IMG/VR virus record: IMGVR_UViG_3300046820_000088
Span: 38,424-102,423 of that record
DNA: 64,000 bases
Direction: 5' to 3' (one strand)
Source: a virus
Below are positions 7,875-38,457 of this stretch, piece after piece; the stretch's first letter is position 1, and each line of letters opens with the position of its first letter. The translations under genes were made by a program, and so were the position numbers. The notes under the pieces were generated by a model. The model worked only from the letters and a program-made list of their open reading frames with translations, did not search any database and was not told where the DNA came from.

Positions 7875-9258
7875 AGTTCTCGTACTCTGTTTTACATATA
7901 GCCATAAACTCACTATACTCTGGAAATAGGGTGTGAAAGTCTGTTCCTAATCTTTTGTCGTTTTCTGTAAAGAAACTATAGAAGTCTCTGCGTCCTTGTT
8001 TAATCTTTTCGTCGCTGACTGGATTTTCTCTCATGTAATCTACTACACGCTTGAACACTTCGTACTCTAGTTCGTTAAATCCTACAGCTAGTCCATTAGA
8101 CATCATGTTGTCTTTGATAAACTGTAGATTATCTGACATGTACTGATTGAAGCTTTCTGGTAAGATATTGATCATCCAGTGTGGAGGTTCTTTTAAGTAC
8201 GGAGTATCGAACTGCACACGTTGATGCCACGGAGTTCCTGGATAGTCTCTTCTAAGTTCTAAGATCTTTTCCAACAGTGTTCTAAAGTTTGCAACTGTTA
8301 GTACATTAAAGGTAATCATAAAACTGATATCTTGTTGAGGAAGATTATCTAGATAGTATCTAAGATTCTTTTCCCAAAGAACAATGTCTAACCCAGTGCG
8401 AATATATTCGGCTTGTGGCCCCCAGGTGTCGATACTGGTATACAACTTAAACCCTTTGATGGCTTTTTTCTCTAATAACACCTTAACATGATCAACTAGT
8501 TTTTGTACAAGTCTGTGTGTTACTCCTAGATTACTGTTAAGATGAATTTCTAAGTGCGGACTAGGATCGTTTTCCAACATCTCTAACATCTTAAATGTAT
8601 TCGGATTCATCAACGGCTCTCCGCCTGTGATACGGAACACACGTAGATCTTTCTTAAGACTAGGCCACCATTCCCAGAATGCATCTACATAGGGATTGGG
8701 GTCATCTTTATTAAAAAATTCGCTGTAATTTAAAAAATCGATACCATACTGATTGTATGTTAGATCGTAGTTGCCGTGTCTCTTTACTTCTTCCATCCAA
8801 CTACTAGATGCCTGAGGGCAGCAATATCCACATCTAAAGTTACAACCGTTTCCGAAACTAACTTCGAGATGTCTAGGATTCCAATCGGCTTCCCAACCAC
8901 CGGCAACAATATCGTCGATTGTAGAGTCGATATAGTTAGAACTGTGCTTCATGCGATCACTAATATGCTCGCCCGGCAAGTCTTCAATATTCCAGCAATA
9001 ATAACATTCTTGAGGTCTGCCACCCTCCATCATTTCTTTACGTTGTTGTTTTTTCCAAGGTGTATTATGTAATGCACTAGGATTGTCTTTCAGCAACGTT
9101 TTGTCAATTTTGTGTGGCCGTGGATGATAGCAGCTATGATTATCTCCCATGTGAAGATATAGCGTTTCCATATTCCATTTTGCTAGACAAAATCCTTTGC
9201 CTACTTTGTTTAACTGGTCTCGTGTATCCTGTATAATCTCGATGTATTTTCTTGTCAT
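7864..9258 (-). CDS. Radical SAM protein, paralogue of the next upstream gene
   Basis: 464 aa. N-terminal module: C24 in FCLAKW, C43 in HSCYHP, C85 and C88 in CYYCWNIED. Radical SAM core: C139-x3-C143-x2-C146, then TGGEPL, the SAM-binding GGE motif. The order and spacing match the 539-aa protein encoded just upstream, so the two arose by duplication. The start ATG 9258 shares one base with the upstream stop. Probably works on the same kind of substrate as its paralogue; a phage protein or host factor is possible. Confidence 0.85.
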   Translation of the reverse strand: MTRKYIEIIQDTRDQLNKVGKGFCLAKWNMETLYLHMGDNHSCYHPRPHKIDKTLLKDNPSALHNTPWKKQQRKEMMEGGRPQECYYCWNIEDLPGEHISDRMKHSSNYIDSTIDDIVAGGWEADWNPRHLEVSFGNGCNFRCGYCCPQASSSWMEEVKRHGNYDLTYNQYGIDFLNYSEFFNKDDPNPYVDAFWEWWPSLKKDLRVFRITGGEPLMNPNTFKMLEMLENDPSPHLEIHLNSNLGVTHRLVQKLVDHVKVLLEKKAIKGFKLYTSIDTWGPQAEYIRTGLDIVLWEKNLRYYLDNLPQQDISFMITFNVLTVANFRTLLEKILELRRDYPGTPWHQRVQFDTPYLKEPPHWMINILPESFNQYMSDNLQFIKDNMMSNGLAVGFNELEYEVFKRVVDYMRENPVSDEKIKQGRRDFYSFFTENDKRLGTDFHTLFPEYSEFMAICKTEYENYGK

Positions 9259-10877
9259 TATTTTCCTAGATAGATATTTGGAAATGCTTTTTTAAAATCT
9301 GTTCCTCTTCGTTGATCGTGTTGTACAAAAAACTCAGATAGATTTTGAATATTAGTTTCTCTTATTTCAGCGGTGTATTTATTTTCTTCTATTAGCGCGA
9401 TGTTTCTTTTCAACTTCTCAACCTCGTAGGGTTTAAATCCAGTTAAAGATTTTTGATATATGTTTTCGTTGCAGTGTGTTTCCATCCATGTAAGTACTCC
9501 TTTCAAATGCTCTATATCTTTATCAGTAGCATTAAAAATATTAAGCCATTGGGGATTTCTTAATACTGGAATATCAAACCATACTCGTTGAAATGGTCTT
9601 ATTTTATATTTCATTTGAGCTAATACTGACCATTCTTTTCTCAACTGAAGAATCATTTCTAAGTATTCTTTTATATTAGGTATACTTAAAAGATTGAATG
9701 TATTGATAAAACTCACGCTGGTATTTCTGGTCTTACTTAAGAATGTTCTAGTATTTGTCAACATTCTATCAAAGTCAAGACCATTGCGTATATATTCGGC
9801 CTGCTCGCCTACGCTATCAACACTTACATAAAGTGTAAAATGTTTACAGGCTTTATCATTGTATTTGTAAAGATAAGTGAAGCTACCATCTTCAAGAGCG
9901 TGACCTATTACTGGAAATGTTTGAGGAATATCGAATCGTTCAATACTAGGAAGATCGCTGTTGTGATATTCTTTAGAGTCTTTACCGATGATAAAATGCT
10001 TCCACGAAGTCCAATCGCTTCCGTCTTTAGGATCAGGAACATAGCATTCTGCAGAATGTTCTACAGTATCTAATGCTTTAACTTTATCTACAAACTTATC
10101 AAACAGTTCCTGCTTCGGAGGGCACATGTTACTAGTAATGCTTAATTCTAGATTTTTATTAGGATTATCTTTTACGTAGTCTAGAACCTTAAAGGTATTT
10201 GCATCTAGCAAAGGTTCGCCGCCAGTCATGCGAAATACTTTGAGATTGGCGTATATGTCCGGCCACCATTTCCAGAAAGCTTCAACATAGGGATTATCTT
10301 TGTTTGCAAGACCGATTGGCATCAATCCAACATTTTTTAGAACAGCAATATTATTGTGTTCTTCTTTTCCTATGTTATAGGGACCGTATATTTCGATTTC
10401 GTTTTGCCATTCACTACTTAGGTGAGGACTACAGTAACTACATTTAAAGTTACATGTTTGATTGAAGTTTACTTCAACGTAAGTTGGCTTGACGTTAAAG
10501 TCAAACGGCTGACTGACAATCTCGTCGATTTTATCAACAGCCCAATGTTCGCTACTTCTGTAATATCTATCGCTAACGTGCCCGGCATCTTCAATCTTCC
10601 AGCAGTAATCACACCCTGTAGGTCGTTGACCTTCGAGCATCATTTTTCGTTCTTCGAACTTTTGATAGGTATTATGTAATGCACCAGGATCTAACTTTAG
10701 CTGATCTAAGTTAATCTGATGTGTGGGAGGGTGATAGCAACTATGTGTGCGACCATTAGTTAGATGCAAACTAACTTGAAGCCATTTGGCCGCACAGAAG
10801 CTCGGGCTTATACTGTCTATATGAGATTTTGATGAATCAAAACCTTTAACGTAAAAGTTGACTTTTTTTGTTTCCAC
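9258..10877 (-). CDS. Radical SAM protein, longest of the quartet
   Basis: 539 aa. N-terminal cysteines: C28 (FCAAKW), C47 (HSCYHP), C89 and C92 (CDYCWKIED). Radical SAM motif C142-x3-C146-x2-C149, then TGGEPL. Compared with its 464-aa paralogue it has an insert of roughly 70 residues in the middle of the core (around residues 270-340). First gene of the four-gene radical SAM run; it starts one base after the stop of a small unknown gene. Radical SAM proteins of this layout occur in aquatic T4-like phages but I know of no assigned function. Confidence 0.85.
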   Translation of the reverse strand: METKKVNFYVKGFDSSKSHIDSISPSFCAAKWLQVSLHLTNGRTHSCYHPPTHQINLDQLKLDPGALHNTYQKFEERKMMLEGQRPTGCDYCWKIEDAGHVSDRYYRSSEHWAVDKIDEIVSQPFDFNVKPTYVEVNFNQTCNFKCSYCSPHLSSEWQNEIEIYGPYNIGKEEHNNIAVLKNVGLMPIGLANKDNPYVEAFWKWWPDIYANLKVFRMTGGEPLLDANTFKVLDYVKDNPNKNLELSITSNMCPPKQELFDKFVDKVKALDTVEHSAECYVPDPKDGSDWTSWKHFIIGKDSKEYHNSDLPSIERFDIPQTFPVIGHALEDGSFTYLYKYNDKACKHFTLYVSVDSVGEQAEYIRNGLDFDRMLTNTRTFLSKTRNTSVSFINTFNLLSIPNIKEYLEMILQLRKEWSVLAQMKYKIRPFQRVWFDIPVLRNPQWLNIFNATDKDIEHLKGVLTWMETHCNENIYQKSLTGFKPYEVEKLKRNIALIEENKYTAEIRETNIQNLSEFFVQHDQRRGTDFKKAFPNIYLGK

Positions 10878-27356: not shown

Positions 27357-27647
27357 TTAGATATTTAGTAACCGTATATAGCCTATAAGATCGATAGTGA
27401 CTAATAAAATATAGTTAGCCACCATGCCTGTACTTTTTCGAGTCCAAGCGGCCCACCCAAAAATAGCACATTGAGTAATAAAGATCGGATACAACCATAT
27501 AAACAGTGGATCTGTGGCACCGGCTGCTAAAACAAGAGAGCATGTTAGACTCATAAACCAGGCAGCAATTTCTAGAATGAACCGAAGAGGCCATTCTTTG
27601 AAATCGTGATGTGCCCAGTTATAGACACCTTTAAAGAAGTTAATCAT
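27357..27647 (-). CDS. Small membrane protein (96 aa)
   Basis: Three hydrophobic segments at about residues 24-42 (FILEIAAWFMSLTCSLVLAAG), 48-65 and 76-94 with short polar links, so a multi-span inner-membrane protein. Its ATG 27647 overlaps the upstream dsbA-like gene by 4 nt. Function unknown; common in the polymerase neighbourhood of aquatic T4-like phages, from memory. Confidence 0.65.
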   Translation of the reverse strand: MINFFKGVYNWAHHDFKEWPLRFILEIAAWFMSLTCSLVLAAGATDPLFIWLYPIFITQCAIFGWAAWTRKSTGMVANYILLVTIDLIGYIRLLNI

Positions 27648-27904
27648 TCGGGTAGACGCTTAGTAACTCCGAGGATCATTTCGATTTCATCCCATTCTTC
27701 TTCATGAGCCTTCCAGTTATCTTTATGTGCAATACGAATTGCTTTATTAATAATGCTAGGCTTAACCTGTAGCTCTTCTGCTACTGCTTTTACAGTTTCT
27801 TTAAGACCTTCTTGCAGATCTTCAACTTCTCGCAATACATTTGATCCTTCGTTGATAAGTCTCTCTAGTTTTGCTTTTTCTTCTGGTCCGTACATTTTAG
27901 ACAT
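27644..27904 (-). CDS. dsbA: DsbA-like double-stranded DNA-binding protein
   Basis: 86 aa. The C-terminal half reads VKAVAEELQVKPSIINKAIRIAHKDNW followed by EEEWDEIEMIL, which lines up with the T4 DsbA pattern ending LYHKDNRDxFExExEE. T4 DsbA binds DNA and assists late transcription and replication. The N-terminal half is a charged helix. A near-consensus sigma-70 promoter sits just upstream (27926-27954), so early synthesis is expected. Confidence 0.75.
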   Translation of the reverse strand: MSKMYGPEEKAKLERLINEGSNVLREVEDLQEGLKETVKAVAEELQVKPSIINKAIRIAHKDNWKAHEEEWDEIEMILGVTKRLPE

Positions 27905-27925
27905 ATGTTTCTCCTGTAAGCTGAT

Positions 27926-27954
27926 ATTATACAGGGATAAAAAAAGCCGGTCAA
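27926..27954 (-). promoter_or_regulatory. Sigma-70-like promoter embedded in a terminator
   Basis: Minus strand TTGACC (27954-27949), a 17-base spacer, and TATAAT (27931-27926). The -35 box lies in the stem of the terminator hairpin at 27942-27971, which ends the upstream gene. The promoter drives dsbA, the small membrane gene and gp43, and is expected to be read by host polymerase. Confidence 0.75.
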
Positions 27955-27971
27955 CTTAGTTGCCGGCTTTT
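27939..27971 (-). terminator. Rho-independent terminator after the 337-aa gene
   Basis: Stem of 9 bp (AAAAGCCGG with CCGGCTTTT, 27942-27950 and 27963-27971) plus a 4-bp inner stem with one bulged base and a 3-base loop, then a T-rich run on the minus strand. It ends transcripts of the gene at 27989-29002. Confidence 0.75.
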
Positions 27972-27988
27972 GATAGTAAATGGTAATA

Positions 27989-29002
27989 TTACTTTTTAGA
28001 TTCGCTTAGTACGTCAAACATTTCAAACTGACCACCCATGCGCTCGTATACCATACCTGCATAGACTTCTGCCTTCATGCTTTCTGTAAACTTGCTTTGA
28101 GCAACTCTTGTGGCCCAGTCAAACAAATCTTTGTCTAATGGATCGATAGCTTGTTGTCCGCCGCTTTCTACAACTAACTTCATCATTTCTTTAAAAGTTA
28201 GTTTTTGTTCAACACTTTCTTTAACTGGACGCTTCTTGCCCTTTGGCATCATTTTGCTTTCGTCTTTTTTCTTTTCCCCACCTAGTACCTTGTCGCGTCC
28301 AGTGAAGTAATCGTAATCGTCTTTATCATTTCCACTAGATGGCATATTTTTGCCTTTGTTAGCCGCGTGGAACGCAGCATTCTTCTCGGCAGTTGTTGCT
28401 GGCTTCTTCTTTCCTAGACCAACGGCATTCTTTACAGTGTCTATAACACCTTCAGTTTTCTTGCCGCCAACGGCCTTACTAACTGCGGCACGACGATTCT
28501 TTAGATAGTCGTCCGTCTTATCTTTCTTACCATCGTTGTTAACATCGTCGTCTTCTTTGCCAACTGGATCCATTGCTTCTTCCATTTTCTTTTTCTTGGC
28601 ATCGGCTTTTTTCTTGTCTTCTTTTTCAGTTTTCTTAGCTTCGACCATCTTCATGAACTTGGACTTAAACTGTGGCTCAATACTTTCGTCTTTCTTTTTG
28701 GCTTTCTTTTCTTCAGAATCAGCTTCGTCGCCTTTGTACTTGTCGCCCTTGACAGCCATACCAGGATGCTTTTTACCTGACTTATCGGTCCAAGGCTTGT
28801 CTGTTTTTTCAGCAGCTTCGTCTACTTTTTCTTCTGCTTCTGCTTTCTTTTTAGCTTCAGCAACATATGTAGAAGCTCCGCTAAGAACACGTAACTGTGC
28901 GTCTTCGTTTAGTTGAACAGCTTGCGGTAGCTTTGGAGCAGCTGGAGTAGCAACTGGCGGTTCCATGCTATCTAGTTTATTGAGTAGTGATTTGAAGTCC
29001 AT
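27989..29002 (-). CDS. Lys/Glu/Ala-rich internal-head-type protein (337 aa)
   Basis: Low-complexity basic-acidic protein: Lys/Glu runs at about 75-165, then a globular, helical C-terminus ([14 protein letters not shown], then [16 protein letters not shown]). No enzymatic motif. It opens the set of neighbouring proteins (27989-33452) that look like prohead core or injected proteins. The start [13 protein letters not shown] is helical but not an exact MR..E tag. Late octamer upstream (29035-29042). Family not recognised. Confidence 0.65.
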
Positions 29003-29034
29003 TTTAAATTCCTTGATCCTTAAGGTTCATATTA

Positions 29035-29042
29035 TATTTATC
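29035..29042 (-). promoter_or_regulatory. Late-type octamer GATAAATA
   Basis: Minus-strand GATAAATA overlaps the stop-codon end of the upstream gene (29038). With a 5-base gap the start would be 29029, giving a 26-nt leader with AAGGA and AGGAAT sites before the ATG at 29002. One mismatch from the T4 octamer. Confidence 0.6.
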
Positions 29043-29283
29043 TTTTGAGTGCTACACCTGCACCAAATAAACTGACATTAGAATCTAATGCGTTTGTACC
29101 TGGTTTTTGCATTACTGGTTTTGGTTGCGGAGGAGATTTAGTTCCTGATTTTCCAGGACTTCCTATGTAGCTTTTCTTTCCTCTAGCAGGACCCGGGCTT
29201 AGGTGCGGATTAGGAACAGTAGCAATATTACCTGCTGAAGTTGCTCCTGCGCTAGCGGTTTCGAATAGTTCGTGTAATCTCAT
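29038..29283 (-). CDS. Small protein with MRLHELFE tag (81 aa)
   Basis: N-terminus MRLHELFETASAGATS looks like a capsid-targeting tag with an LFE-TA type cleavage site. The rest is Pro/Gly/Ser/Lys-rich and probably disordered, as in phage internal proteins. The ATG 29283 has no ribosome site; a GATAAATA octamer is placed so that the transcript would begin exactly at the ATG. No family recognised. Confidence 0.65.
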   Translation of the reverse strand: MRLHELFETASAGATSAGNIATVPNPHLSPGPARGKKSYIGSPGKSGTKSPPQPKPVMQKPGTNALDSNVSLFGAGVALKR

Positions 29284-29288
29284 GCTAA

Positions 29289-29296
29289 TATTTATC
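29289..29296 (-). promoter_or_regulatory. Late octamer for a leaderless transcript
   Basis: Minus-strand GATAAATA followed by the five bases TTAGC, so the T4-rule start is 29283, the A of the ATG itself. The gene has no Shine-Dalgarno site. The octamer overlaps the stop codon of the upstream GH19 gene. Confidence 0.55.
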
Positions 29297-30143
29297 GTAT
29301 TGCAACTTTAAAATCTTGGAACTTGTCTTGTCGTTGGTCCAAATGTTTTAATCCAGGATTAATGCCTTTTGTAACATCTTTGACATTATCAAAGTTTTTA
29401 ACTTTATTGCTGACTCTGTTTTGCCAGAACCAAACTGATGTTTTAGCGGCAATTTCTGGCCTTTCAACAAGTTCTGGATTTTGGACTAATCTGTTATCGC
29501 CAAATAAGGCTTTAGATGCCTCGGCATAGTTGTATTTGCCTGTTAGTTGAATGTAACCCCTACCAGAATATCTTGCTCCGTCGCCGGGCTTAGTATTACC
29601 TAATCGTTTGGCTTTTGCTGGAGCAAATCTAATATCGTATTTTTTAAAGTCTAGTTTGCCCCCTATTTCTTTCATGTGTTTGAAATCCATAGTTTCGTGA
29701 GCACACTGACTTAAGAAGGCTGCAAGTTCTTGCCCTTTTATTCCTGCTTTCTCTGCTGTTTTTCTTAACAAAACTTCGTGCGGATTGCCTGTTACAGATT
29801 TTTCTATTTCTTTTTTACTAATCTGTTTTAAGGGATCAACTTTCTTAACGTCTTGTTTAACTTGTTGAACAACGGCTGGTTTTTCTGTAGGTTTCTTTTT
29901 GGCTGCTTCTGCATCTCCAGAAGCTCCTAGTGCGGCTGCACCCATAGCAGCACCTGCTACCCAATCTTTCCAACCTTCTTGTTCGATACTTTCGCTTCCG
30001 CCTTCCCCGACAGATTCCCCGCCATCACCACTATATCCAGCATAGTATCCGTATCCGCCGTAAGGACCTGGACCATATGCTGCCCAACGAGGTTTACGTT
30101 TCTTTTTTCTTTTTCTTTCTGAAACAAACTCGTGAGCTCTCAT
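29292..30143 (-). CDS. Virion-type GH19 lysozyme with MRAHEFVSE tag
   Basis: 283 aa. N-terminal tag MRAHEFVSE, then a basic RKRKKKRKPR run, a Gly/Tyr-rich part and a hydrophobic stretch AAMGAAALGASGDA. The C-terminal 170 residues are a GH19 chitinase-like domain: QCAHETMDFKHMKE with the catalytic Glu, RYSGRGYIQLTGKYNY, and an SVWFWQNR helix. GH19 lysozymes cleave glycosidic bonds in peptidoglycan. The tag suggests packaging in the head or virion for entry, whereas a separate GH19 endolysin lies at 40341. Confidence 0.78.
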   Translation of the reverse strand: MRAHEFVSERKRKKKRKPRWAAYGPGPYGGYGYYAGYSGDGGESVGEGGSESIEQEGWKDWVAGAAMGAAALGASGDAEAAKKKPTEKPAVVQQVKQDVKKVDPLKQISKKEIEKSVTGNPHEVLLRKTAEKAGIKGQELAAFLSQCAHETMDFKHMKEIGGKLDFKKYDIRFAPAKAKRLGNTKPGDGARYSGRGYIQLTGKYNYAEASKALFGDNRLVQNPELVERPEIAAKTSVWFWQNRVSNKVKNFDNVKDVTKGINPGLKHLDQRQDKFQDFKVAIR

Positions 30144-30334
30144 TTCTTTTTACCTGATTTCATGTTTGCACACCAGTGTGCCATGCGTGCTTTTTCACCA
30201 GAGCTATTTTTAGCAGTTTTTCTTAGACTACTAACGCTAGCCTTACAATTTACTCCACTGCGTTTGGCCAAACCTTTGCGACCTGGCTTTTTGCCGTCAG
30301 CAAAGTTTTCGATGATAAACTCGCTTGCTCTCAT
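30140..30334 (-). CDS. Small basic protein with MRASEFIIE tag (64 aa)
   Basis: Tag MRASEFIIENFADG, then a very basic stretch KKPGRKGLAKRSGVNCKASV with a Cys, ending SGKKK. The pattern GRKGLAKRS... resembles the basic segment also present in the 375-aa protein C-terminus, so the two could share a DNA-binding or processing function. Overlaps both neighbours by 4 nt. No family named. Confidence 0.6.
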   Translation of the reverse strand: MRASEFIIENFADGKKPGRKGLAKRSGVNCKASVSSLRKTAKNSSGEKARMAHWCANMKSGKKK

Positions 30335-30408
30335 ACTGGACTGTAGGGGTTGCGAAAACGATCATACCCGTCGTCTTCTGGATATACTGGATAATCATCT
30401 GGACCCAT
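30331..30408 (-). CDS. Possible 25-aa small protein
   Basis: ATG 30408 follows GGGGAGAAGAAAT, a strong ribosome site, and the stop overlaps the next ATG by 4 nt (ATGA), as elsewhere in this run. The product is acidic and Tyr/Pro-rich, starting MGPDDYPVYPEDDG. It overlaps the end of the upstream 98-aa gene by 14 nt. Too short for composition tests; the ribosome-site pattern is the evidence. Confidence 0.5.
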   Translation of the reverse strand: MGPDDYPVYPEDDGYDRFRNPYSPV

Positions 30409-30691
30409 ATTTCTTCTCCCCAGTAAGGTAAGGCTTACTAAACCATAACTGAAACCATTCCGGAGTTCCGGGTTTGATATTATGCTCTTTCTCGATCTTT
30501 TGGTTTTCCATTCCAGTAACACTGATATTGCTACCTTGATCCACTCGATATTCGTGTAGTCTAGCTGAATGCCCTAGACCTGCGAGATATTGAATAGATT
30601 TTAATTCGTAGATAGGATCACTTGGATCAAGGACACAGTCATCTGGGCTGTCTTGATTTAAGTTTTCAGTAGTGATCTTATATTGCTTCAT
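30395..30691 (-). CDS. Unknown 98-aa protein
   Basis: Globular mixed composition: an N-terminal half with SPDDCVLDPSDPIYEL, then LAGLGHSARLHEYRVD, and a C-terminal KPGTPEWFQLWFSKPYLTG. The N-terminus is MKQYKITTEN and resembles a weak tag. Stop overlaps the 25-aa frame by 14 nt; the start shares one base with the previous stop. Family unknown, probably a phage head-associated protein by position. Confidence 0.6.
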   Translation of the reverse strand: MKQYKITTENLNQDSPDDCVLDPSDPIYELKSIQYLAGLGHSARLHEYRVDQGSNISVTGMENQKIEKEHNIKPGTPEWFQLWFSKPYLTGEKKYGSR

Positions 30692-31320
30692 TACATTCCA
30701 CCGCCGACTAGTTTTCCTTTTGGATAACCTTTAGGATCTTTTCCTTTAAGTTGTCCTGCTGGACCTTCTTTCTGACCAACTTTTTTTCCTGCAAATGGAA
30801 TATCGGCAGCTTCTTCAACACTGCCAAATCTAGATTCGTATTGCTCTTCGTCTCTAGCATCATCTAGTGCATAGTTAGCAAACTTGATTAAACTTTTTAA
30901 TGTTTTTTCGATATTATAAACTGCACCATTAGCTGCTCTAATCGCTTGAACAGCTTCTTCAATAGAATCGGTCATGTCAACTTTGGCGCTATCGTCCGCA
31001 ATACTGTTAATGCCTTCCATCATAGAAGTAAGCTCGTCTTCAATAGCTTCGAACTCGTAGTGATTTTTTTGTGCTTTAAGGACGGCAGGCATTAACTGTT
31101 CTAGTTGAGCAATCATAGATTCTATTTGCTGAACTTTGCTTCCCTGAGCGGCTTCTTCAGCAACGGCTTTTTGTTTGTGTTTTGTATCGCCTTGCTTCTG
31201 TGCTTTCTTTTTATCTTTATGTGCGCCAGCGCCGCCCATCTTTGCATTTTTAGCAACAAAGTTTCTTGGTTTTGATGCGTCGATCTTTTTAGATTCTGTA
31301 AGTATTTCTATTGCTCTCAT
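30691..31320 (-). CDS. Internal-head-type protein with MRAIEILTE tag (209 aa)
   Basis: Tag MRAIEILTESKK, then a Lys/Ala-rich basic part, then a long helical region (IESMIAQLEQLMPAVLKAQK, and more), ending with a Gly/Lys-rich tail. No enzyme motif. Prohead-core or injected protein by its tag and composition. Overlaps the next gene upstream (31317) by 4 nt. Similar tagged proteins occur in aquatic T4-like phages. Confidence 0.65.
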   Translation of the reverse strand: MRAIEILTESKKIDASKPRNFVAKNAKMGGAGAHKDKKKAQKQGDTKHKQKAVAEEAAQGSKVQQIESMIAQLEQLMPAVLKAQKNHYEFEAIEDELTSMMEGINSIADDSAKVDMTDSIEEAVQAIRAANGAVYNIEKTLKSLIKFANYALDDARDEEQYESRFGSVEEAADIPFAGKKVGQKEGPAGQLKGKDPKGYPKGKLVGGGM

Positions 31321-31997
31321 TTTGATTTCCTTGTTTGCTTTGGACCTTTCCTAGTCTTCCATTTCTTGTCGGTTGAACACCAGTAACGTCCGTAGCCTTC
31401 TTCTACAGTGTCTTTTACACCTAGACCTTGTTTAACAGCACTAAACAGCTTTTCTGCATGTTGTCCAGCACCTGTGGATTCTTTAAACTTTTCGAAGTCG
31501 TTATTTGCAGCAGCAGATCTAGCATTACTTGCACTAACACCAGACACTCCCTCGGCACCATCTTCTCTCTCGCCGCTGGATTTAAAATCTAATACTTCAA
31601 AGTTATAAAAACCGTGGCTCTTGCCTTCTACATTATTATAGTCTTTGAGTAGTTTAGACATTTCTTCGATACGATCGCTGCCTGCAACAAATGTAGCATT
31701 TCTGTAACCTAGATCGTGTAGATGACTTGCAACTTTAAGAACAGTATTAAGACTTGCATCGTCTACAATATTTTTGGCATGTTCGGGAAACATGGACTTC
31801 ATGAATCCTATTTTAGTAGAATAGTCCAGAGGATTTTTCTTTTTGTCTTGAGTTTGACTGAGAAATATTTTGTACTCTCCGCCGATACCTTTGAGAGTAT
31901 CTAGCAATAACTTATGACCTACCGTAGGAGGATTCATTCTACCGAAGCAGAATGAAACATGAGAGTTAGAAGATTCGAAAAGTTCACTGATCCTCAT
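31317..31997 (-). CDS. Nucleotidyltransferase-like protein with MRISELFES tag
   Basis: 226 aa from ATG 31997; two codons further upstream also read open. After the tag MRISELFESS the sequence has FCFGRMNPPTVGHKLLLDTL, with TVGH in place of the HxGH motif of cytidylyl- or adenylyltransferases, and a later SASNARSAA block in the place of the ISSTxIR motif. Family members join nucleotides to phosphate-bearing substrates (for example NMN or pantetheine phosphate). The N-terminal tag suggests it is packaged or membrane-targeted, which is unusual for this enzyme class. Confidence 0.65.
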   Translation of the reverse strand: MRISELFESSNSHVSFCFGRMNPPTVGHKLLLDTLKGIGGEYKIFLSQTQDKKKNPLDYSTKIGFMKSMFPEHAKNIVDDASLNTVLKVASHLHDLGYRNATFVAGSDRIEEMSKLLKDYNNVEGKSHGFYNFEVLDFKSSGEREDGAEGVSGVSASNARSAAANNDFEKFKESTGAGQHAEKLFSAVKQGLGVKDTVEEGYGRYWCSTDKKWKTRKGPKQTRKSK

Positions 31998-32325
31998 AGT
32001 CACCGTTTGACATATGTTTTTCTTGTTCTTCTGCGATCTTTTTCGCTAGCTCGATAAGTCCCTCTTTAGAAAACTTATTTTCTTTTTCATCTATTTCAAA
32101 TTTTGAGCAATACTGTTCTACACACTGTTCAAGAGGTCTGATATAGAGTTTAAATGCACTTGGATTACCTTTGTACTCTTTATGTTTTTTAACAGCAGGA
32201 AAGAATACATTGGTTAGAAGTTTATCATCATTGTCGATGAAAAACTTCAAATCTCCCATCCAGTCAACGTCTGATTTTTCTTCAGTTGGCGCACCGATGG
32301 GGCTAAACATTTCTCTTAATAGCAT
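31984..32325 (-). CDS. Unknown 113-aa protein
   Basis: Starts MLLREMFSPIG, a loose variant of the tag found in neighbours, then a helical acidic domain with two Cys (QCVEQYC). Overlaps the upstream gene by 1 nt and the next by 14 nt. Family unknown; probably head-associated by location. Confidence 0.6.
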   Translation of the reverse strand: MLLREMFSPIGAPTEEKSDVDWMGDLKFFIDNDDKLLTNVFFPAVKKHKEYKGNPSAFKLYIRPLEQCVEQYCSKFEIDEKENKFSKEGLIELAKKIAEEQEKHMSNGDYEDQ

Positions 32326-33452
32326 TACCAGCTCCTACAAGACCAGTAACGTGCTTTCCAACGTGGTCCTGGATTTTTACAGTTATGGCGAGCACGGAAA
32401 GATTTTCTACGTGCTGGATTTGATTTCTTAATACGCATTTTCTTATCGCCAAAGTTTACCTTGACAATCTTGCCGTTGGGCTTGCGTACATATACTTTTG
32501 ATTTCTTTACATCGCCTGGTAGTTTTTTACCTAGCGGAACATTCTTGCCATGATACTCGGCTTCGTCTACATTTTCGTCATAGTTGTTGGCTTTCATGTA
32601 GTCTCTAGCAGTATCGATGTAATCCATAGCCTTGGTGATTTTAGATTGAACCCACTCTGGTAAATTGTCGTCTGTATCTAAAATGTCATATAACTCTTGA
32701 GCAGCATCGTTAATGGTACGTAGATCGTCTTTGGCCATGTCGCCTTCGTTATCGTACTCTGCATAGTTTTCTGGATCTTCTGGATTCTCAGAATGATCTT
32801 CTTTCTTAAACTTGTCTTTAATTTTGCCTAGCTCTTCTTCTGAAGCACCATCACGTCCGGCCTGTGCTAGTGCAGACATGCCGTCTTTACCGTATTTCTT
32901 TTTACCTGTGTAGTATTGCAAACCACTTTCGTCAAGATCTTCGCCAATCTTTTCGCAGTCGTTTACACGTTTGCCAGCATTTTTACCTGTTCCGGGCTTT
33001 GTGCCTACTTTACGATAACCTTTCCAGCAGCTCTTTGGTCCTGCTACGCCTTCTACAAGTTCACCTTCTAAGAAACTTAATCCTTCGTTGGTTAACATTT
33101 CCATAGCTGCATCGTCTAGATCAATAACAATCCCGTCAGCAACAAATCCTACGATCTCTGTTGATATTTCTAAATCTTCAGAGAAGCTAATACCAAAGTC
33201 GTCTCCAACTACAAACGTACTTTCGTTAGCGGTATCTTTACCAGCAAGTCCTTTCTTTCCGTAGTTGATTTCGTAATCGTCGTCTGTCGGCTCCATATTG
33301 GTCTTAACTCCGCTAGGACTAACATGTTCTTTTTCTTTATCTGCAATAGCTTTTTTGATTACAGGGTCTTGGGCAGCAGGCATCTTTTTTAGATCCTGCA
33401 AGGTGGCTTCTTCTGATAGAATTTTGTCCAGTTTAGATATAATGTCTCTCAT
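32325..33452 (-). CDS. Large tagged protein with basic C-terminal domain (375 aa)
   Basis: Starts MRDIISKLDKILSE, tag-like. The N-terminal half is acidic, with a cysteine-containing CWKGYRKVGTKPGTGKNAGK segment near 145-165; the last 40 residues are strongly basic with two Cys (SFRARHNCKNPGPRW, then YWSCRSW), like DNA-binding or core-protein tails. Likely an internal head or scaffold-like protein. Its start is inside a hairpin overlapped by a late octamer (33450-33484), so late-only synthesis is expected. Confidence 0.65.
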   Translation of the reverse strand: MRDIISKLDKILSEEATLQDLKKMPAAQDPVIKKAIADKEKEHVSPSGVKTNMEPTDDDYEINYGKKGLAGKDTANESTFVVGDDFGISFSEDLEISTEIVGFVADGIVIDLDDAAMEMLTNEGLSFLEGELVEGVAGPKSCWKGYRKVGTKPGTGKNAGKRVNDCEKIGEDLDESGLQYYTGKKKYGKDGMSALAQAGRDGASEEELGKIKDKFKKEDHSENPEDPENYAEYDNEGDMAKDDLRTINDAAQELYDILDTDDNLPEWVQSKITKAMDYIDTARDYMKANNYDENVDEAEYHGKNVPLGKKLPGDVKKSKVYVRKPNGKIVKVNFGDKKMRIKKSNPARRKSFRARHNCKNPGPRWKARYWSCRSW

Positions 33453-33484
33453 AGTACGATTCCAAAGGTCATACTATATTTAGC
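33450..33484 (-). promoter_or_regulatory. Start-codon hairpin overlapped by late octamer
   Basis: On the minus strand ATAGTATG (33477-33470) pairs with CGTACTAT (33458-33451), 8 bp with one G-U, around an 11-base loop holding GGA; the AUG is the end of the 3' arm. GCTAAATA (33484-33477) is a late octamer with predicted +1 at 33471, which removes nearly all of the 5' arm. Third case of this layout in the window, the weakest of the three. Confidence 0.55.
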
Positions 33485-33496
33485 GTTTTTGAAAAC

Positions 33497-33853
33497 TTAG
33501 TAATTATAACGTATTTGAACGATCTTTCCGTTCTCGAGATTGTATGCTGCGCGAATCCACACAAAGTTACCGGTAAAGTTGCCAGTATACACTGTGATTT
33601 CGTTGGAGATAGTGCTGTCTCCGCCCTCGTTTGTGCCTACAATATCTATCCAGTCTGCATCACCTGGATAAGATTCTAGACTTCCTTGTAGTTTAATAGA
33701 ACCCGAAAATGCTTCTACTTCGTATATGTAGGTGTGCAAGCCACCGTTTTTCTTATGATACCCTGCACCTACTTGTTTTGTAGAATACGAAAATGCAGAA
33801 CTTCCTGCTTCTGCAGAAGTTTCATCTAATAAAATAACGCTTTTTGTGGACAT
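33497..33853 (-). CDS. Small virion-type protein (118 aa)
   Basis: ATG 33853; a TTG codon just before is less likely. Thr/Ser/Gly-rich, beta-strand pattern with IYEVEAFSGSIKLQGSL and aromatic ends, typical of tail or baseplate accessory proteins. No motif. It stands between the tagged head-type genes and the 225-aa unknown. Confidence 0.6.
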   Translation of the reverse strand: MSTKSVILLDETSAEAGSSAFSYSTKQVGAGYHKKNGGLHTYIYEVEAFSGSIKLQGSLESYPGDADWIDIVGTNEGGDSTISNEITVYTGNFTGNFVWIRAAYNLENGKIVQIRYNY

Positions 33854-33856
33854 CAA

Positions 33857-34534
33857 CTATTTATCGACTAAAACATAATTATAAACTCGGCCCATAACTT
33901 CTGGGTTTCGCAGTTTCAGCAATAATAACGTTTTATCGTCCTCAACTAGCACATATCTTCTATCCCAGTTCCAATCAGTAGCCATAAACCAGTGCTGAAT
34001 AGCTGGAGTGCAGGTTATTTTATCACCTTGACCTAAAATCCATTCTAGATATTTGGTTTTGCTCTCTGGATCTTTTGCTAGTTTATGTGGTAAAAGAAAG
34101 ACCTTGTGTCGGTATTTCTTATGCGGAAACTTCTTAACCAGTATAACTTCTTCATTTTCGAGACTGTCTATAGTGTTAACTGCTGGTTCATATTGATGAA
34201 CTACTATAGATTGAAACTTTGAAGATAGCTCTAGGTAGAAATCTCGATCATTTGTATAGAAATCAACACATTTACTTTCGATTCGTTTGGTCCATGTATT
34301 AGAATCTTTGCTTAACAAGAACTCTGTAAGATCATGTATTGAATCTCGATTAAACCATGCCTTATAGTGCATAGAATAGGGTTGATAATATGCACCCGTA
34401 TTAGACAAACAAAACTTTTTAATCTCTTCAAGAGGCAGCAATCGAAAGATTCCCGCCCCTTGAATGATTAATGTTGTTTTATAAAGCCACTTATTGTAAA
34501 ACTTACGGTTAGTTACCTTCGTTTTCTGTGACAT
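33857..34534 (-). CDS. Unknown 225-aa protein
   Basis: ATG 34534 with AAGGAAAC upstream; a longer frame to 34558 is open. Basic N-terminal part (VTNRKFYNKWLYKTTLIIQG) and a Trp-containing core (FMATDWNWDRRYVLVEDD). It overlaps the end of the clpA-like gene by 26 nt, so it is translated after it. I do not recognise the family. The basic start could bind nucleic acid, but no motif shows it. Confidence 0.6.
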   Translation of the reverse strand: MSQKTKVTNRKFYNKWLYKTTLIIQGAGIFRLLPLEEIKKFCLSNTGAYYQPYSMHYKAWFNRDSIHDLTEFLLSKDSNTWTKRIESKCVDFYTNDRDFYLELSSKFQSIVVHQYEPAVNTIDSLENEEVILVKKFPHKKYRHKVFLLPHKLAKDPESKTKYLEWILGQGDKITCTPAIQHWFMATDWNWDRRYVLVEDDKTLLLLKLRNPEVMGRVYNYVLVDK

Positions 34535-36854
34535 CAACGGTTGTTTCCTTCTCAGCATTGGCCTTCTTAAGGGCTTTACGCTCTTCTTTGGTCAACGGTT
34601 TGGGCATATCTTCTACAGTAAATGCCAGCTCGTTATTTACAACAGACACTGTAACACGACCGCCATTGACTAGATCACCAAACAATACTCGGCGGCTTAG
34701 TGGACTCTTGATGTTGTTATCGATCATTCGAGCAAGTGGTCTCGCACCCATCTTGCTGTCGTATCCTTTTTCTGATAACCATTTTAGTGCATCAGCATCA
34801 GCAACGATTTCGATGTTTTTGTCCTTGAGCTGCGAGTTAAGTTCGTTGATAAACTTTTTCACAATCTGAACAACTACCTCTTCACCCAACTTACGGAACT
34901 TGATAACAGCGTCTAAGCGATTACGAAACTCTGGTGCAAAAAACTTTTTAATAGCTTTGTCATCCTCACCGTCTTTACCTAGATCACCAAAGCCGATAGT
35001 ATTCTTTTCGTTATCGGCAGCTCCTAAGTTACTGGTCATGATCAAGATAGTGTTGCGACCATCGGCCTGCTTTCCATTTGATCCTGTTACAAAACCGTTA
35101 TCCATGAACTGCAACAAGATATTCGAAACATCTGGATGTGCTTTTTCAATCTCGTCTAACAACAGAATACTGTTAGGATGCTCTTGTAACTTTGTGATCA
35201 GTTGTCCTGCATTATCTTCGTATCCAACATAACCAGGAGGAGAACCAATCAGTTTTGCTACGCTGTGTTTTTCTTGATACTCACTCATATCGAATCTGAT
35301 TAGATTCATACCCATCTTTTCAGACAATGCACGAGCTGTTTCAGTCTTACCGCAACCTGTTGGGCCGAGGAATAAGAAACTGCCGATTGGTTTATTTGGA
35401 TGCTTCATGCCAGCTTGTGCTACAAAGATCTTATCTAGCAATGTATCTACAGCAGTATCTTGACCGTAGACAGCAGTCTTCATACCTTTTTCAAGCTCTG
35501 CAAGATTCTTAGATTCTTTCTGAGCAACAGCCTCCAACGGCATATTGATCATCTTGCTAAGTTCGTAAGTAATCTGCTCGATGTCGACAATCTGTTCAAC
35601 ACCCTCCATACCTTCTTCATCTTTGACTTTGTATCGTGCAGATGCACAGTCGATAATGTCAATAGCCTTGTCGGGCAACTTTTTATCTGCCATATATTTG
35701 ACAGATAGTTTAACTGCCTGCTCAATAGCACCGTCGGTAATCTTAACGTTATGATGTTTCTCGTAATACTTTTTAAGACCTTTGATGATCTTTACAGTCA
35801 TTTCTGAACTTGGCTCGTCAACTGTAACACGTTGGAATCGACGCATTAGAGCACGATCCTTTTCAAAGTGCTTGCGATACTCTTCCCATGTTGTTGAAGC
35901 AATCAGTTTCAGAACACCTTTTGTCAACATAGGTTTAAGCATATTGCTCATATCGTTGCTGGATTGATTGGCAGCACCTGCACCTTGCATCATATGAGCT
36001 TCGTCGATAAACAGGATGATCTTGCCTTTCTTTTCAAGTGCAGCAAGAACCGCTTTTAGACGTTCTTCAAAATCACCACGATATTTACTGCCTGCAAGCA
36101 ATGCACTAATGTCTAGTGTGTAAACTTGATGATCCTGAATAAACTTAGGAACTTTCTTTTCAAAGATTTTACGTGCAAGGCCTTCTGCGATAGCAGTTTT
36201 ACCGACACCTGGATCACCAACTAGCAATACGTTTGACTTGTTGCGACGAGCAAGTACTAGTTGAATCTTTTCTAGTTCTTCGTCACGACCGATAACTGGA
36301 TCGATCTGACGTTGTTTAGCTCTAAGACTAAGGTTAGTACAGAACTGATTCAATACTCGTTCGATTTGATTAGAGTTTGCAACTTGAGCAGGAACTTGTT
36401 CCTCGTCATCTGACTCTTCCACTTGCATATTTTCTTGGAAGTATTTGACAAACTTTTCTTTAGATAGTCCGCCTTTAGTAAGGAAGTAGTAACTAAAGCT
36501 GTTCTTTTCACTCAAGATGCTAATAATAACATCGGCGATTTCAATACGCTGTCTGCCACTAAACAGTACCTGTGTAAATGCACGATTCAATGCACGTTCG
36601 ATAGAGTTTGTTTTCTTGGGCTTTGCGCCAGAATCTGTTACAATATCTGCCAGATTATTTTTTAGATAATGATCGAGATTTGATTTAATAAAGTTAGCAT
36701 CTGCTCCGAAGCTTTCTACAAACGAGTAAGATTCTTCGTGACACATAATACTATATGTCAGATGCTCGATAGTAATGTATTCGTGCTTCAGATCTTTTGC
36801 AACACCAATGGCGTGTTCAAAGATTGAATGTAACGTGCTGCTAGGTTCGATCAT
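34509..36854 (-). CDS. clpA: ClpA-like AAA+ unfoldase
   Basis: 781 aa, close to E. coli ClpA (758). N-terminal Clp-repeat domain (about 1-145), then AAA-1 with Walker A GDPGVGKT (213-220) and Walker B ILFIDEAH (280-287), and AAA-2 with GPTGCGKT (497-504) and LLLDEIEKAHPD. An IGF tripeptide at 620-622 fits the ClpP-binding loop (IGL in ClpA, IGF in ClpX). No ClpP gene is in the window, so it would dock host ClpP. Coupled to the deformylase upstream (shares one base). Its role in the infection is unknown. Confidence 0.9.
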   Translation of the reverse strand: MIEPSSTLHSIFEHAIGVAKDLKHEYITIEHLTYSIMCHEESYSFVESFGADANFIKSNLDHYLKNNLADIVTDSGAKPKKTNSIERALNRAFTQVLFSGRQRIEIADVIISILSEKNSFSYYFLTKGGLSKEKFVKYFQENMQVEESDDEEQVPAQVANSNQIERVLNQFCTNLSLRAKQRQIDPVIGRDEELEKIQLVLARRNKSNVLLVGDPGVGKTAIAEGLARKIFEKKVPKFIQDHQVYTLDISALLAGSKYRGDFEERLKAVLAALEKKGKIILFIDEAHMMQGAGAANQSSNDMSNMLKPMLTKGVLKLIASTTWEEYRKHFEKDRALMRRFQRVTVDEPSSEMTVKIIKGLKKYYEKHHNVKITDGAIEQAVKLSVKYMADKKLPDKAIDIIDCASARYKVKDEEGMEGVEQIVDIEQITYELSKMINMPLEAVAQKESKNLAELEKGMKTAVYGQDTAVDTLLDKIFVAQAGMKHPNKPIGSFLFLGPTGCGKTETARALSEKMGMNLIRFDMSEYQEKHSVAKLIGSPPGYVGYEDNAGQLITKLQEHPNSILLLDEIEKAHPDVSNILLQFMDNGFVTGSNGKQADGRNTILIMTSNLGAADNEKNTIGFGDLGKDGEDDKAIKKFFAPEFRNRLDAVIKFRKLGEEVVVQIVKKFINELNSQLKDKNIEIVADADALKWLSEKGYDSKMGARPLARMIDNNIKSPLSRRVLFGDLVNGGRVTVSVVNNELAFTVEDMPKPLTKEERKALKKANAEKETTVDVTENEGN

Positions 36855-37348
36855 TATTTCTTTTTCCTTAGTTTCTTCATTGCTAATTGTAACTTTAACG
36901 GTGATACTTTGTCAACAAAACACACGCCGTTAAGGTGATCTAGCTCATGCTGAAAGCACTTTGCTAGATATCCGTCTACACGAATTTCTTTGAGATTGCC
37001 CTTGCTGTCTTGATATTCAGCAACAATCCAGCTTGGCCTCTTTAGTTTTAAGTAAAGATCCGGATAGCTTAAACATCCTTCTTCATCAAGCACCTCTTCT
37101 GTGCTTGACTCTTTAATCACGGGATTGAATACAGCAAAGGGCTCTGGGAAGCCTTCAAGGTTTCGACTGCCCATTACAAAGACTCTACGAGCAATACCGA
37201 TTTGATTTGCTGCTAGTCCTATGCCTCTGTTCGTTTCCATGAATGAAATCATGTCTGCTTCTAGTTGAGCAGCATCCCCGTCTGTTTCGAAGTTCCAGGG
37301 CTCGCTAACTTCGACAAGGGTATTGTGTGGTCCTAGTTTAAAATCCAT
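36854..37348 (-). CDS. def: Peptide deformylase
   Basis: 164 aa. All three motifs of the family are intact: GIGLAANQ (42-49), EGCLS (90-94) and QHELDH (133-138), whose Cys and two His bind the iron and whose Glu is catalytic. The enzyme removes formyl from new proteins; phage versions are common in marine T4-like phages. It lies between dnaJ and clpA, sharing 1 and 11 nt with them, so the three form a protein-quality operon. Confidence 0.95.
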   Translation of the reverse strand: MDFKLGPHNTLVEVSEPWNFETDGDAAQLEADMISFMETNRGIGLAANQIGIARRVFVMGSRNLEGFPEPFAVFNPVIKESSTEEVLDEEGCLSYPDLYLKLKRPSWIVAEYQDSKGNLKEIRVDGYLAKCFQHELDHLNGVCFVDKVSPLKLQLAMKKLRKKK

Positions 37349-38165
37349 CTTTTATTTTTTTGATTTGGTCTTTTTGCTCTTGTGTGAGATTCTTAGGAAT
37401 AGACACTTTAACTCTAACTAACAGATTTCCTCTCTGTCTAGTACGCATATCCGGCAAGCCTTCTCCTTTACAACTAAGGACAGTGTCTGGCTGAGTGCCT
37501 GAAGGAATAGTTATATTTAAAGTTCTCTTGTCGATGTTGTCAATCTCTATTTTAGATCCTAACAGTGCATCCCATGCAGAGATAGTAGTTTCGTATATTA
37601 AAGAACTACCTTCTCTTCTAAAAGTTCTATGAGGTCTTACAATAACATTAACAATGAGATCACCTGGGCGAAGATCGCTAATCGAATCATCCCCCATTCC
37701 TGTATATTTGATCTGTTGACCCGATTCTATTCCGGGTGGAATAGCAATGTTAACTACTTTAGTTTTACCGCCAGGGATTCCAACTTCTGCGCTGATGTCC
37801 TTGCCATTGAGTACATCTTCTAGAGTTATCTCTATATTAACACTTAGGCTTCTGTTTCTTCTAGCAGGTCTTCCAAACCCAAAGTTGCCAAAGATATCTT
37901 CGAAGTTTCCTGAGTTAAAGTGAAACTCAAATGGTCCCTGACCAAACCCATGATGACCTGGTTGTGCATTTGGATCGCCACCCATGTCAATGATACGTTT
38001 CTTTTCGGGATTTGACAGTGACTCGTATGCTGTTGAAATCTCTTTAAACTTTTGTTCATCGCCCCCACGATCGGGGTGATGTTTCATTGCAAGACTACGG
38101 TATGCCTTTTTTATTTCAGCGTCAGACGCACCTCTTTGTAAACCTAATGTAGAATAGTAATCCAT
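37338..38165 (-). CDS. dnaJ: DnaJ-like co-chaperone without zinc fingers
   Basis: 275 aa. A J domain (about 1-65) with YYSTLGLQRGASDAEIKKAY and the HPD motif in KHHPDRGGDE, then a Gly/Phe-rich linker (about 68-100) and two C-terminal substrate-binding domains. The CxxCxGxG zinc-finger region of type I DnaJ is missing, so it is like CbpA (type II). It stimulates host DnaK. A sigma-70 promoter with TATAAT 6 bases before the ATG drives it, so the transcript is leaderless or nearly so. No ribosome site is visible. Confidence 0.9.
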   Translation of the reverse strand: MDYYSTLGLQRGASDAEIKKAYRSLAMKHHPDRGGDEQKFKEISTAYESLSNPEKKRIIDMGGDPNAQPGHHGFGQGPFEFHFNSGNFEDIFGNFGFGRPARRNRSLSVNIEITLEDVLNGKDISAEVGIPGGKTKVVNIAIPPGIESGQQIKYTGMGDDSISDLRPGDLIVNVIVRPHRTFRREGSSLIYETTISAWDALLGSKIEIDNIDKRTLNITIPSGTQPDTVLSCKGEGLPDMRTRQRGNLLVRVKVSIPKNLTQEQKDQIKKIKDGF

Positions 38166-38171
38166 TTTATT

Positions 38172-38200
38172 ATTATACGAAAAAAATAGGACTACGTCAA
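38172..38200 (-). promoter_or_regulatory. Sigma-70 promoter TTGACG-17-TATAAT with leaderless start
   Basis: Minus strand TTGACG (38200-38195), 17-base spacer, TATAAT (38177-38172), then 6 bases to the ATG of dnaJ (38165). The -35 box lies in the loop of the terminator at 38186-38210. It should be read by host polymerase early and start transcripts at or next to the ATG. Confidence 0.75.
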
Positions 38201-38210
38201 GTAGTCCTAT
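38180..38210 (-). terminator. Rho-independent terminator after the secreted small protein gene
   Basis: ATAGGACTAC (38186-38195) pairs perfectly with GTAGTCCTAT (38201-38210), 10 bp with a 5-base loop, followed on the minus strand by a run of about six T. Its loop includes the -35 box of the next promoter. Confidence 0.8.
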
Positions 38211-38235
38211 GTATTTACTGAGTAAGTGTCAGTGA

Positions 38236-38457
38236 TTATTTTTTCTTTTCGTCTTTCTTAGCGGGAGCCTTTTCTGGAACAGCAGTTCCTTCGTGCTTCT
38301 TGTGTATCTTAACGTTTTTACAAACTTCTTTTTCTTTGCCTGTCTTTGCGTCTTTTTGTGTTACACATGCCTTTTTAACTTCTGGCTTAGCATCGTCAGC
38401 AGCCATTGCTGGCATAACAAATGCTGTTGCTAGTAATAATGCAAATAGTTTTTTCAT
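38236..38457 (-). CDS. Secreted small Lys-rich protein (73 aa)
   Basis: A classic Sec signal peptide MKKLFALLLATAFVMPAMA (1-19, cleavage after AMA) is followed by a 54-residue mature chain with two Cys (C31, C46) and a Lys/Glu/Ala-rich tail ending KKDEKKK. It could be periplasmic with a disulphide. It precedes the lysis genes and has its own terminator. The role may be envelope disturbance or exclusion, but no family is known to me. Confidence 0.75.
   Translation of the reverse strand: MKKLFALLLATAFVMPAMAADDAKPEVKKACVTQKDAKTGKEKEVCKNVKIHKKHEGTAVPEKAPAKKDEKKK

Follow-up and report, generated by a model that had tools for sequence, protein, structure and literature searches.

How closely can the terminator of one gene group, the promoter of the next and a start codon be packed in a phage genome, and would a message that begins there carry a leader? 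The question is raised by the DNA that precedes dnaJ in a virus contig of 102,423 bases (IMG/VR record IMGVR_UViG_3300046820_000088), of which a 64,000-nucleotide stretch, referred to as the window, was the starting point of this study. A preliminary description of the window had proposed that a terminator and a promoter are interlocked before dnaJ and that host RNA polymerase makes a leaderless mRNA for a chaperone, deformylase and ClpA operon early in infection. Here, the site, hereafter the cassette, was compared with its relatives and with the starts of other genes. A TAAATA box, the conservation in relatives and a genome-wide leaderless class that contains dnaJ are additions to the earlier account.

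Genes and sequence elements at the dnaJ start

Judged by its replication and late-transcription genes, the phage is T4-type. T4-family matches were obtained for DNA polymerase (phrog_262), clamp loader (phrog_168) and gp55 (phrog_234); the gp55 match lies at 6089-6439 of contig G000 (E 3.5e-26), and gp55 is present in 11 of 16 contigs. A DNA search of the phage collection gave no near relative. Bacterial and archaeal genomes, when scanned, yielded 58 loci, every one in a cellular-organism record and none close (best segments 27-61% identity). Sinorhizobium phage Phosso has the dnaJ-def-clpA neighbourhood in common with the window and Agrobacterium phage Atu_ph07 the dnaJ-clpA neighbourhood; the cassette is absent from both. 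Elsewhere in the window, at 5455-10877, four ORFs with radical-SAM-type matches follow one another.

The proposed operon of chaperone, deformylase and ClpA genes is borne out by Pfam matches and overlapping frames (Table 1). A misplaced dnaJ start was considered and rejected, as the J domain begins at residue 2. Upstream of the hairpin lies a lysis group with holin-like and GH19 endolysin-like genes. Its last ORF is lysine-rich, with a signal-peptide-like start and a KKHEGTAVPEK-like tail; such tails also end the gene upstream of dnaJ in many relatives.

Table 1. Positions of genes and sequence elements in the window.
Feature	Position	Strand	Basis
Small upstream ORF, 73 aa, last of the lysis-gene group	38236..38457	-	Frames, family matches
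GTAAATAC, 5' of the hairpin	38218-38211	-	Sequence reading
TAAATA, core of T4-type late promoter box, just 5' of the hairpin (putative promoter)	38212..38217	-	Relatives; gp55 gene present
Intrinsic-terminator-like hairpin, 10 pairs, loop TTGAC, with T7 tract	38180..38210	-	Fold, covariation
Hairpin 5' arm, ATAGGACTAC	38210-38201	-	Sequence reading
Hairpin loop, TTGAC	38200-38196	-	Sequence reading
Hairpin 3' arm, GTAGTCCTAT	38195-38186	-	Sequence reading
T7 tract	38186-38180	-	Sequence reading
-35 hexamer TTGACG (hairpin loop and first 3'-arm base)	38195..38200	-	Sequence; relatives
-10 hexamer TATAAT, 6 bases 5' of dnaJ ATG	38172..38177	-	Sequence; relatives
dnaJ, 275 aa, J domain from residue 2, predicted leaderless	37338..38165	-	Pfam DnaJ, DnaJ_C; no SD-like motif
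Peptide deformylase (def), frame overlaps dnaJ end	36854..37348	-	Pfam, frames
ClpA-like AAA+ ATPase, start overlaps def end	34509..36854	-	Pfam, frames
Second interlocked terminator-promoter (TTGACC 27954-27949, TATAAT 27931-27926)	27926..27970	-	Relaxed scan, pattern search
Gene behind second cassette, 86 aa, phrog_639 'transcriptional regulator'; leader with SD AGGAG 27915-27911	27644..27904	-	Family match

Between the end of the small ORF (38236) and the dnaJ ATG (38165), the elements stand in the order GTAAATAC, hairpin (38210-38186), T7 tract and TATAAT, and 45 DNA letters hold both the terminator of one gene group and the promoter of the next. The preliminary description had placed TTGACG in the terminator loop, 17 bases before TATAAT, and TATAAT six bases before the ATG. 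Both distances are exact, with the last G of TTGACG forming the first base of the 3' arm and AATAAA separating TATAAT from the ATG. As RNA, the hairpin folds with -13.8 kcal/mol (z -2.9), and the features of an intrinsic terminator are present in its G+C-containing stem, T tract and conserved pairing. The window sequence holds no SD-like motif before the dnaJ ATG, as had been stated. The lack of an SD and a -10 about six bases 5' of the ATG make up the sequence signature of a leaderless gene.

Uniqueness and conservation of the cassette

The whole 102-kb record was scanned in three pieces for hairpins with at least 6 pairs, a loop of 3-8 bases overlapping a -35, a T-rich tail and at most 3 promoter mismatches. 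The dnaJ site alone was returned. At this loose setting, 20 shuffles gave 0 to 2 sites each and none of the quality of the dnaJ site (at least 7 pairs, at most 1 mismatch). The dnaJ cassette is not due to chance. A relaxed scan found one further site in the record, at 27954, presumably the first interlocked site of the preliminary description. When 86 related loci (970,809 bases with near-copies counted) were scanned at the relaxed setting, 61 matches came up, 29 of them distinct, and 61 of 61 lie directly before dnaJ; for the first 40 loci, 32 real matches compare with 1, 1 and 0 in three shuffles.

The further site, or second cassette, belongs to a type (TTGACYGGCTTTTT...TATAAT) that a pattern search of 16 contigs located downstream of dnaJ, about 10-13 kb from the dnaJ cassette in the contigs compared. 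A leader with an SD-like motif follows it in 11 of 11 copies examined (that of the window and 10 others). For this reason the missing SD at dnaJ is a real contrast, and phages with the dnaJ cassette therefore do use SD leaders; in the record of the window, SD-like motifs precede 38 of 75 ORFs. Within 27644-38217 of the window, about 10 kb of co-directional genes, starting with dnaJ and ending shortly before 27989, are flanked by the two cassettes and contain a leaderless-type late box before ORF 29038-29283. Two loci, L107 and L108 (contigs G010 and G012), carry a third interlocked site before another gene, whose proteins start with MTQPLKDDLMVQQQ and MAIPLRDDLMVQQQ; its -10 lies five to six bases from the ATG, upstream of dnaJ in the branch with a hairpin-less dnaJ.

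Relatives were collected from viral contigs in two scans, one with DnaJ and the other with deformylase as query, which gave 87 loci. Five loci without a dnaJ start and three without a dnaJ match were left out; the remaining 79 and the window gave 45 distinct upstream regions. Terminator and overlapping promoter are both kept in 32 of the 45, in classes assigned by hand, with L027, L033 and L082 (2 mismatches) placed here and L064 (3 mismatches) among those with none of the forms. Three regions have the promoter without the hairpin, at a gap of about 8 (L037, L059 and L070), and six have none of these cassette forms. Three others have the hairpin without a -35 and without a good -10 at the right place (L025, L029 and L032); the joint absence argues that -35 and -10 act together. 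The cassette is dispensable, since neither part is found in six relatives and only the hairpin in three. One region, L072, shows the inverse interlock in the last 60 bases before the dnaJ start, with the -10 TATAAT, and not the -35, inside a terminator-like hairpin. On a DnaJ tree, the distribution of the cassette class takes 6 changes, compared with 11.6 on average for shuffled labels.

The 32 regions with both parts keep TTGAC exactly in 30 cases, and the gap from -10 to ATG is 5 in 3, 6 in 22, 7 in 3 and 9 in 4 of them. A gap of 5-9 throughout supports the predicted leaderless dnaJ mRNA of the preliminary description, and the interlocking of terminator and promoter that it had proposed extends well beyond the window. 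Because the gap is 9 in four relatives, there is room for a leader of about 3 bases.

For the stem, the 35 hairpin-bearing regions were aligned, the 10 distinct regions without such a hairpin being left out. In this alignment, 91.6% of cells pair, and changes on both sides occur in 7 of 10 pairs; 28 cells changed on both sides, against at most 6 with the partner slid. The arm occurs as GGACTGC, GGACTAC, GGCTGC, GGCCGC and GGCAGC, each with a matching partner, around a mostly constant TTGAC. Since the stem covaries and TTGAC mostly does not change, selection keeps the hairpin and the -35 in its loop. The inverted repeat might instead be an operator bound by a protein over the -35, on which the palindrome is indeed centred. 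However, compensated changes in the arms are not what a fixed protein site would show, there is a T tract directly 3', and the repeat is found where the upstream gene group ends; we regard an operator in place of a terminator as very improbable.

TAAATA precedes the hairpin in 34 of the 35 aligned regions, outside the interval 38165-38210 of the preliminary description; the exception, L069, has hairpin and promoter. In pre-gene intergenic stretches of the record it is the most enriched hexamer (17 forward and 8 reverse, 4.9 in shuffles). The T4 late promoter consensus is TATAAATA. Of the full eight-base box only the TAAATA core is found here; the preceding positions vary, and the first two differ from the T4 consensus. 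According to an excerpt of PMC2988020, the T4 late box covers 8 base pairs from -13, with phage Aeh1 differing at -13/-12, and T4 late promoters are read by gp55. The TAAATA core is common to both systems, and the gp55 sigma factor that belongs to T4-type late promoters is encoded here too. We infer that TAAATA before the hairpin is a second, late promoter. If it works, late RNA would start at the hairpin foot and meet the terminator at once, and a late attenuator or a 5' hairpin formed from the TAAATA start is possible.

Two other reasons for TAAATA were weighed. A bidirectional terminator was rejected; the reverse-strand T run is absent in the window, L031 and L042. An UP element may be set aside, as TAAATA stays in three relatives without the promoter. 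Many relatives also conserve a further motif, CTCAGTAAAT, about 11 bases 5' of the TAAATA box; at 38225-38211 of the window, motif and box merge into TTACTCAGTAAATAC.

The late box might also supply the main dnaJ message, which would then start at the hairpin foot; the hairpin would serve as an attenuator or a 5' cap, and the match to -35 and -10 would be secondary. This would suit the gp55 gene, the near-universal box and its nearly fixed distance from the hairpin, also in the three regions without a promoter. Against it stand the immediate encounter with the terminator, the -35 and -10 conserved at a fixed ATG gap in 32 of 45 regions, and the promoter of L069 without TAAATA. A main message from the late box thus appears improbable, and the promoter with its -35 in the loop is preferred.

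Promoter-to-start gaps across the lineage

Gaps between promoter boxes and ATG were counted in six lineage contigs (1163 ORFs), of which three were counted first and three were added. G003, G005, G009 and G010 were covered over 280/282, 195/195, 200/210 and 360/364 kb. T4, KVP40 (220/245 kb), RaK2 (340/346 kb) and Atu_ph07 (400/490 kb) served as controls (1120 ORFs). ORFs with ATG starts and at least 80 aa were found in pieces of at most 20 kb, with GTG and TTG starts left out, and their starts are mechanical calls.

A sigma70-type -10 box ends at -7. If the late box ends at -6 and transcription begins with the A of ATG, the expected gaps are 6 for sigma70-type and 5 for late promoters. In the six contigs, sigma70-type gaps of 5, 6 and 7 were found before 7, 21 and 5 ORFs, a sharp peak at 6 followed by a trough and a broad hump at about 15-35. 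TAAATA gaps of 4, 5 and 6 were found before 27, 31 and 10 ORFs, a peak at 4-5 followed by a trough and a hump at about 16-36. Both peaks fit a predicted start no more than one base from the A of ATG. Gaps of 0 and 2 also show small peaks, which look like miscalled ORF starts.

With ranges of 5-7 (early) and 4-6 (late), chosen after viewing the first three contigs, 33 early and 68 late cases of leaderless type were counted in the lineage, against 4 and 0 in the controls; Fisher values are 1.0e-6 and 4.8e-21, with genomes within each side related and not independent trials. T4 has a late box 4-6 bases before the ATG in 0 of 153 ORFs, in contrast to the many in this lineage. The early cases in G000, G003, G015, G010, G009 and G005 number 2, 8, 9, 5, 5 and 4, and the late cases 3, 11, 21, 14, 11 and 8. 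Orthologue pairs are leaderless on both sides in 64 of 104 early cases (base rate 2.8%; 40 are not) and in 96 of 143 late cases (base rate 5.8%; 47 are not).

The early cases include DNA primase, DnaB-like helicase, SbcD-like nuclease, QueE and dnaJ, and the late cases tail tube, terminase large subunit, baseplate wedge and head-tail adaptor; those identified are mostly replication genes in the early class and virion genes in the late class. Primase has an early gap of 6 in 5 of 5 contigs where it was found, and tail tube a late gap of 5 in 5 of 5. Of ten late-class proteins scanned, four match virion families and six gave no match or families of unknown function, as did three further ones.

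Could the A/T-rich boxes by the ATG be translation signals of SD-less mRNAs, with transcription starting elsewhere? A/T-rich starts are described for many bacterial SD-less genes (excerpt of PMC5397173). However, dnaJ has a -35 at the right spacing, and each of the two distinct boxes peaks at the gap that suits its own distance to the start and occurs again at distances that leave room for a leader. In three contigs, moreover, the flanking preferences of TAAATA are alike in leaderless and leadered boxes, and a divergent gene precedes 12 of 35 leaderless late boxes, compared with 97 of 579 ORFs. Translation signals in place of promoters are thus quite improbable, and two leaderless classes, one of sigma70 type and one of gp55 type, probably exist in the lineage.

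Leaderless late boxes directly 3' of an intrinsic-terminator-like hairpin were seen at L116 4423-5511 and at L142 7114-8217 and 11086-12672. Such a hairpin directly precedes 3 of 35 leaderless late boxes and 11 of 592 ORFs. Because three late boxes follow terminator-like hairpins, terminator and leaderless promoter are combined beyond dnaJ as well.

The sequence itself shows the anatomy, its conservation and covariation, the gap peaks and the contrast with other T4-type phages; from these we infer the dnaJ start site, termination and leaderless translation. Most likely, the dnaJ message is leaderless as a member of a lineage-wide class. The region is probably a compact operon boundary, at which the hairpin would stop the lysis group and the promoter with its -35 in the loop would start a leaderless dnaJ-def-clpA message, with dnaJ as one of that class. 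Hairpin and T tract would end transcription of the lysis group, including the 73-aa ORF, and transcription of the operon from the strong sigma70-type promoter would begin with the A of the dnaJ ATG. After terminating, RNA polymerase may stay on the DNA and reinitiate at the overlapping promoter; in vitro, reinitiation at nearby promoters has been shown (excerpt of PMC6978380). Ribosomes would bind the 5'-terminal AUG of the dnaJ mRNA, a mode of initiation described for bacterial leaderless mRNAs, 375 of them in Caulobacter (excerpt of PMC4117421), and def and clpA would follow in overlapping frames. Across the lineage, sigma70-type promoters would stand before replication and other genes and gp55-type late boxes before virion and other genes. 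In T4, the sigma70 RNA polymerase of the host transcribes from the early promoters (excerpt of PMC2988021), and by this analogy the dnaJ promoter may be early, as the preliminary description had it.

A wider reading, which we consider doubtful, is a T4-type jumbo phage lineage with a two-stage leaderless programme. Host-type promoters would serve primase, helicase, recombination nuclease and dnaJ early, and gp55-type promoters terminase, tail tube and baseplate late; 5'-AUG initiation would serve operon-leading genes when SD-dependent initiation is limited by phage, defence or stress.

Comparison with known systems

To our knowledge, known leaderless phage messages are mostly single regulators. 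In PY54 cI and cro (excerpt of PMC4488713) and lambda cI (cited there), a strong promoter stands by the start codon and the mRNA begins with AUG, as predicted here; those are single regulators of temperate phages mapped by RACE, whereas a genome-wide class is predicted in this lineage. The AR9 paper states that phage transcripts are often leaderless, yet AR9 leaders measure 26 to 491 nt (excerpt of PMC5312081). Leaderless genes are common beside SD genes in Caulobacter crescentus too (excerpt of PMC4117421), a cellular genome with mapped 5' ends, whereas the phage starts are predicted from sequence. For T4-type phages, no report of leaderless genes, or of early and late leaderless classes, was found in searches of open-access papers, which is no proof of absence.

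If the prediction is true, a T4-type lineage whose sigma70-type and gp55-type starts fall on the AUGs of core genes would offer a natural test of leaderless initiation on a large scale; for about 100 ORFs of the six contigs, the start site is predicted to nearly single-base precision. It would also be a warning for gene callers that rely on the SD sequence. The dnaJ cassette also illustrates the close packing that is possible for a terminator, a promoter and a start codon.

PeSL (promoter-early stem-loop) cassettes were reportedly described by Arbiol et al. in 2010 in the T4-type phages RB49 and phi1, as mobile elements in variable regions. A PeSL joins a stem-loop terminator of a T4-type phage to a strong promoter of sigma70 type, and the dnaJ cassette has this composition too. 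PeSLs are mobile and repeated, whereas the dnaJ cassette is syntenic, all its matches lying before dnaJ; it also differs in the -35 within the loop and the predicted leaderless start. The dnaJ cassette would thus work like a PeSL but is not classed as one. As in the dnaJ cassette, interlocked sites of Klebsiella phage RaK2 combine a hairpin that contains or adjoins TTGAC with a T run and TATAAT after it. A cluster of such hairpin-promoter sites in RaK2 (NC_019526), at 210243, 211900, 214971 and 217321, has TTGAC in the hairpin and leaders after it. The RaK2 sites examined lead into leadered messages, whereas dnaJ is predicted to be leaderless. PeSLs and the RaK2 sites are the nearest known design, without the leaderless start.
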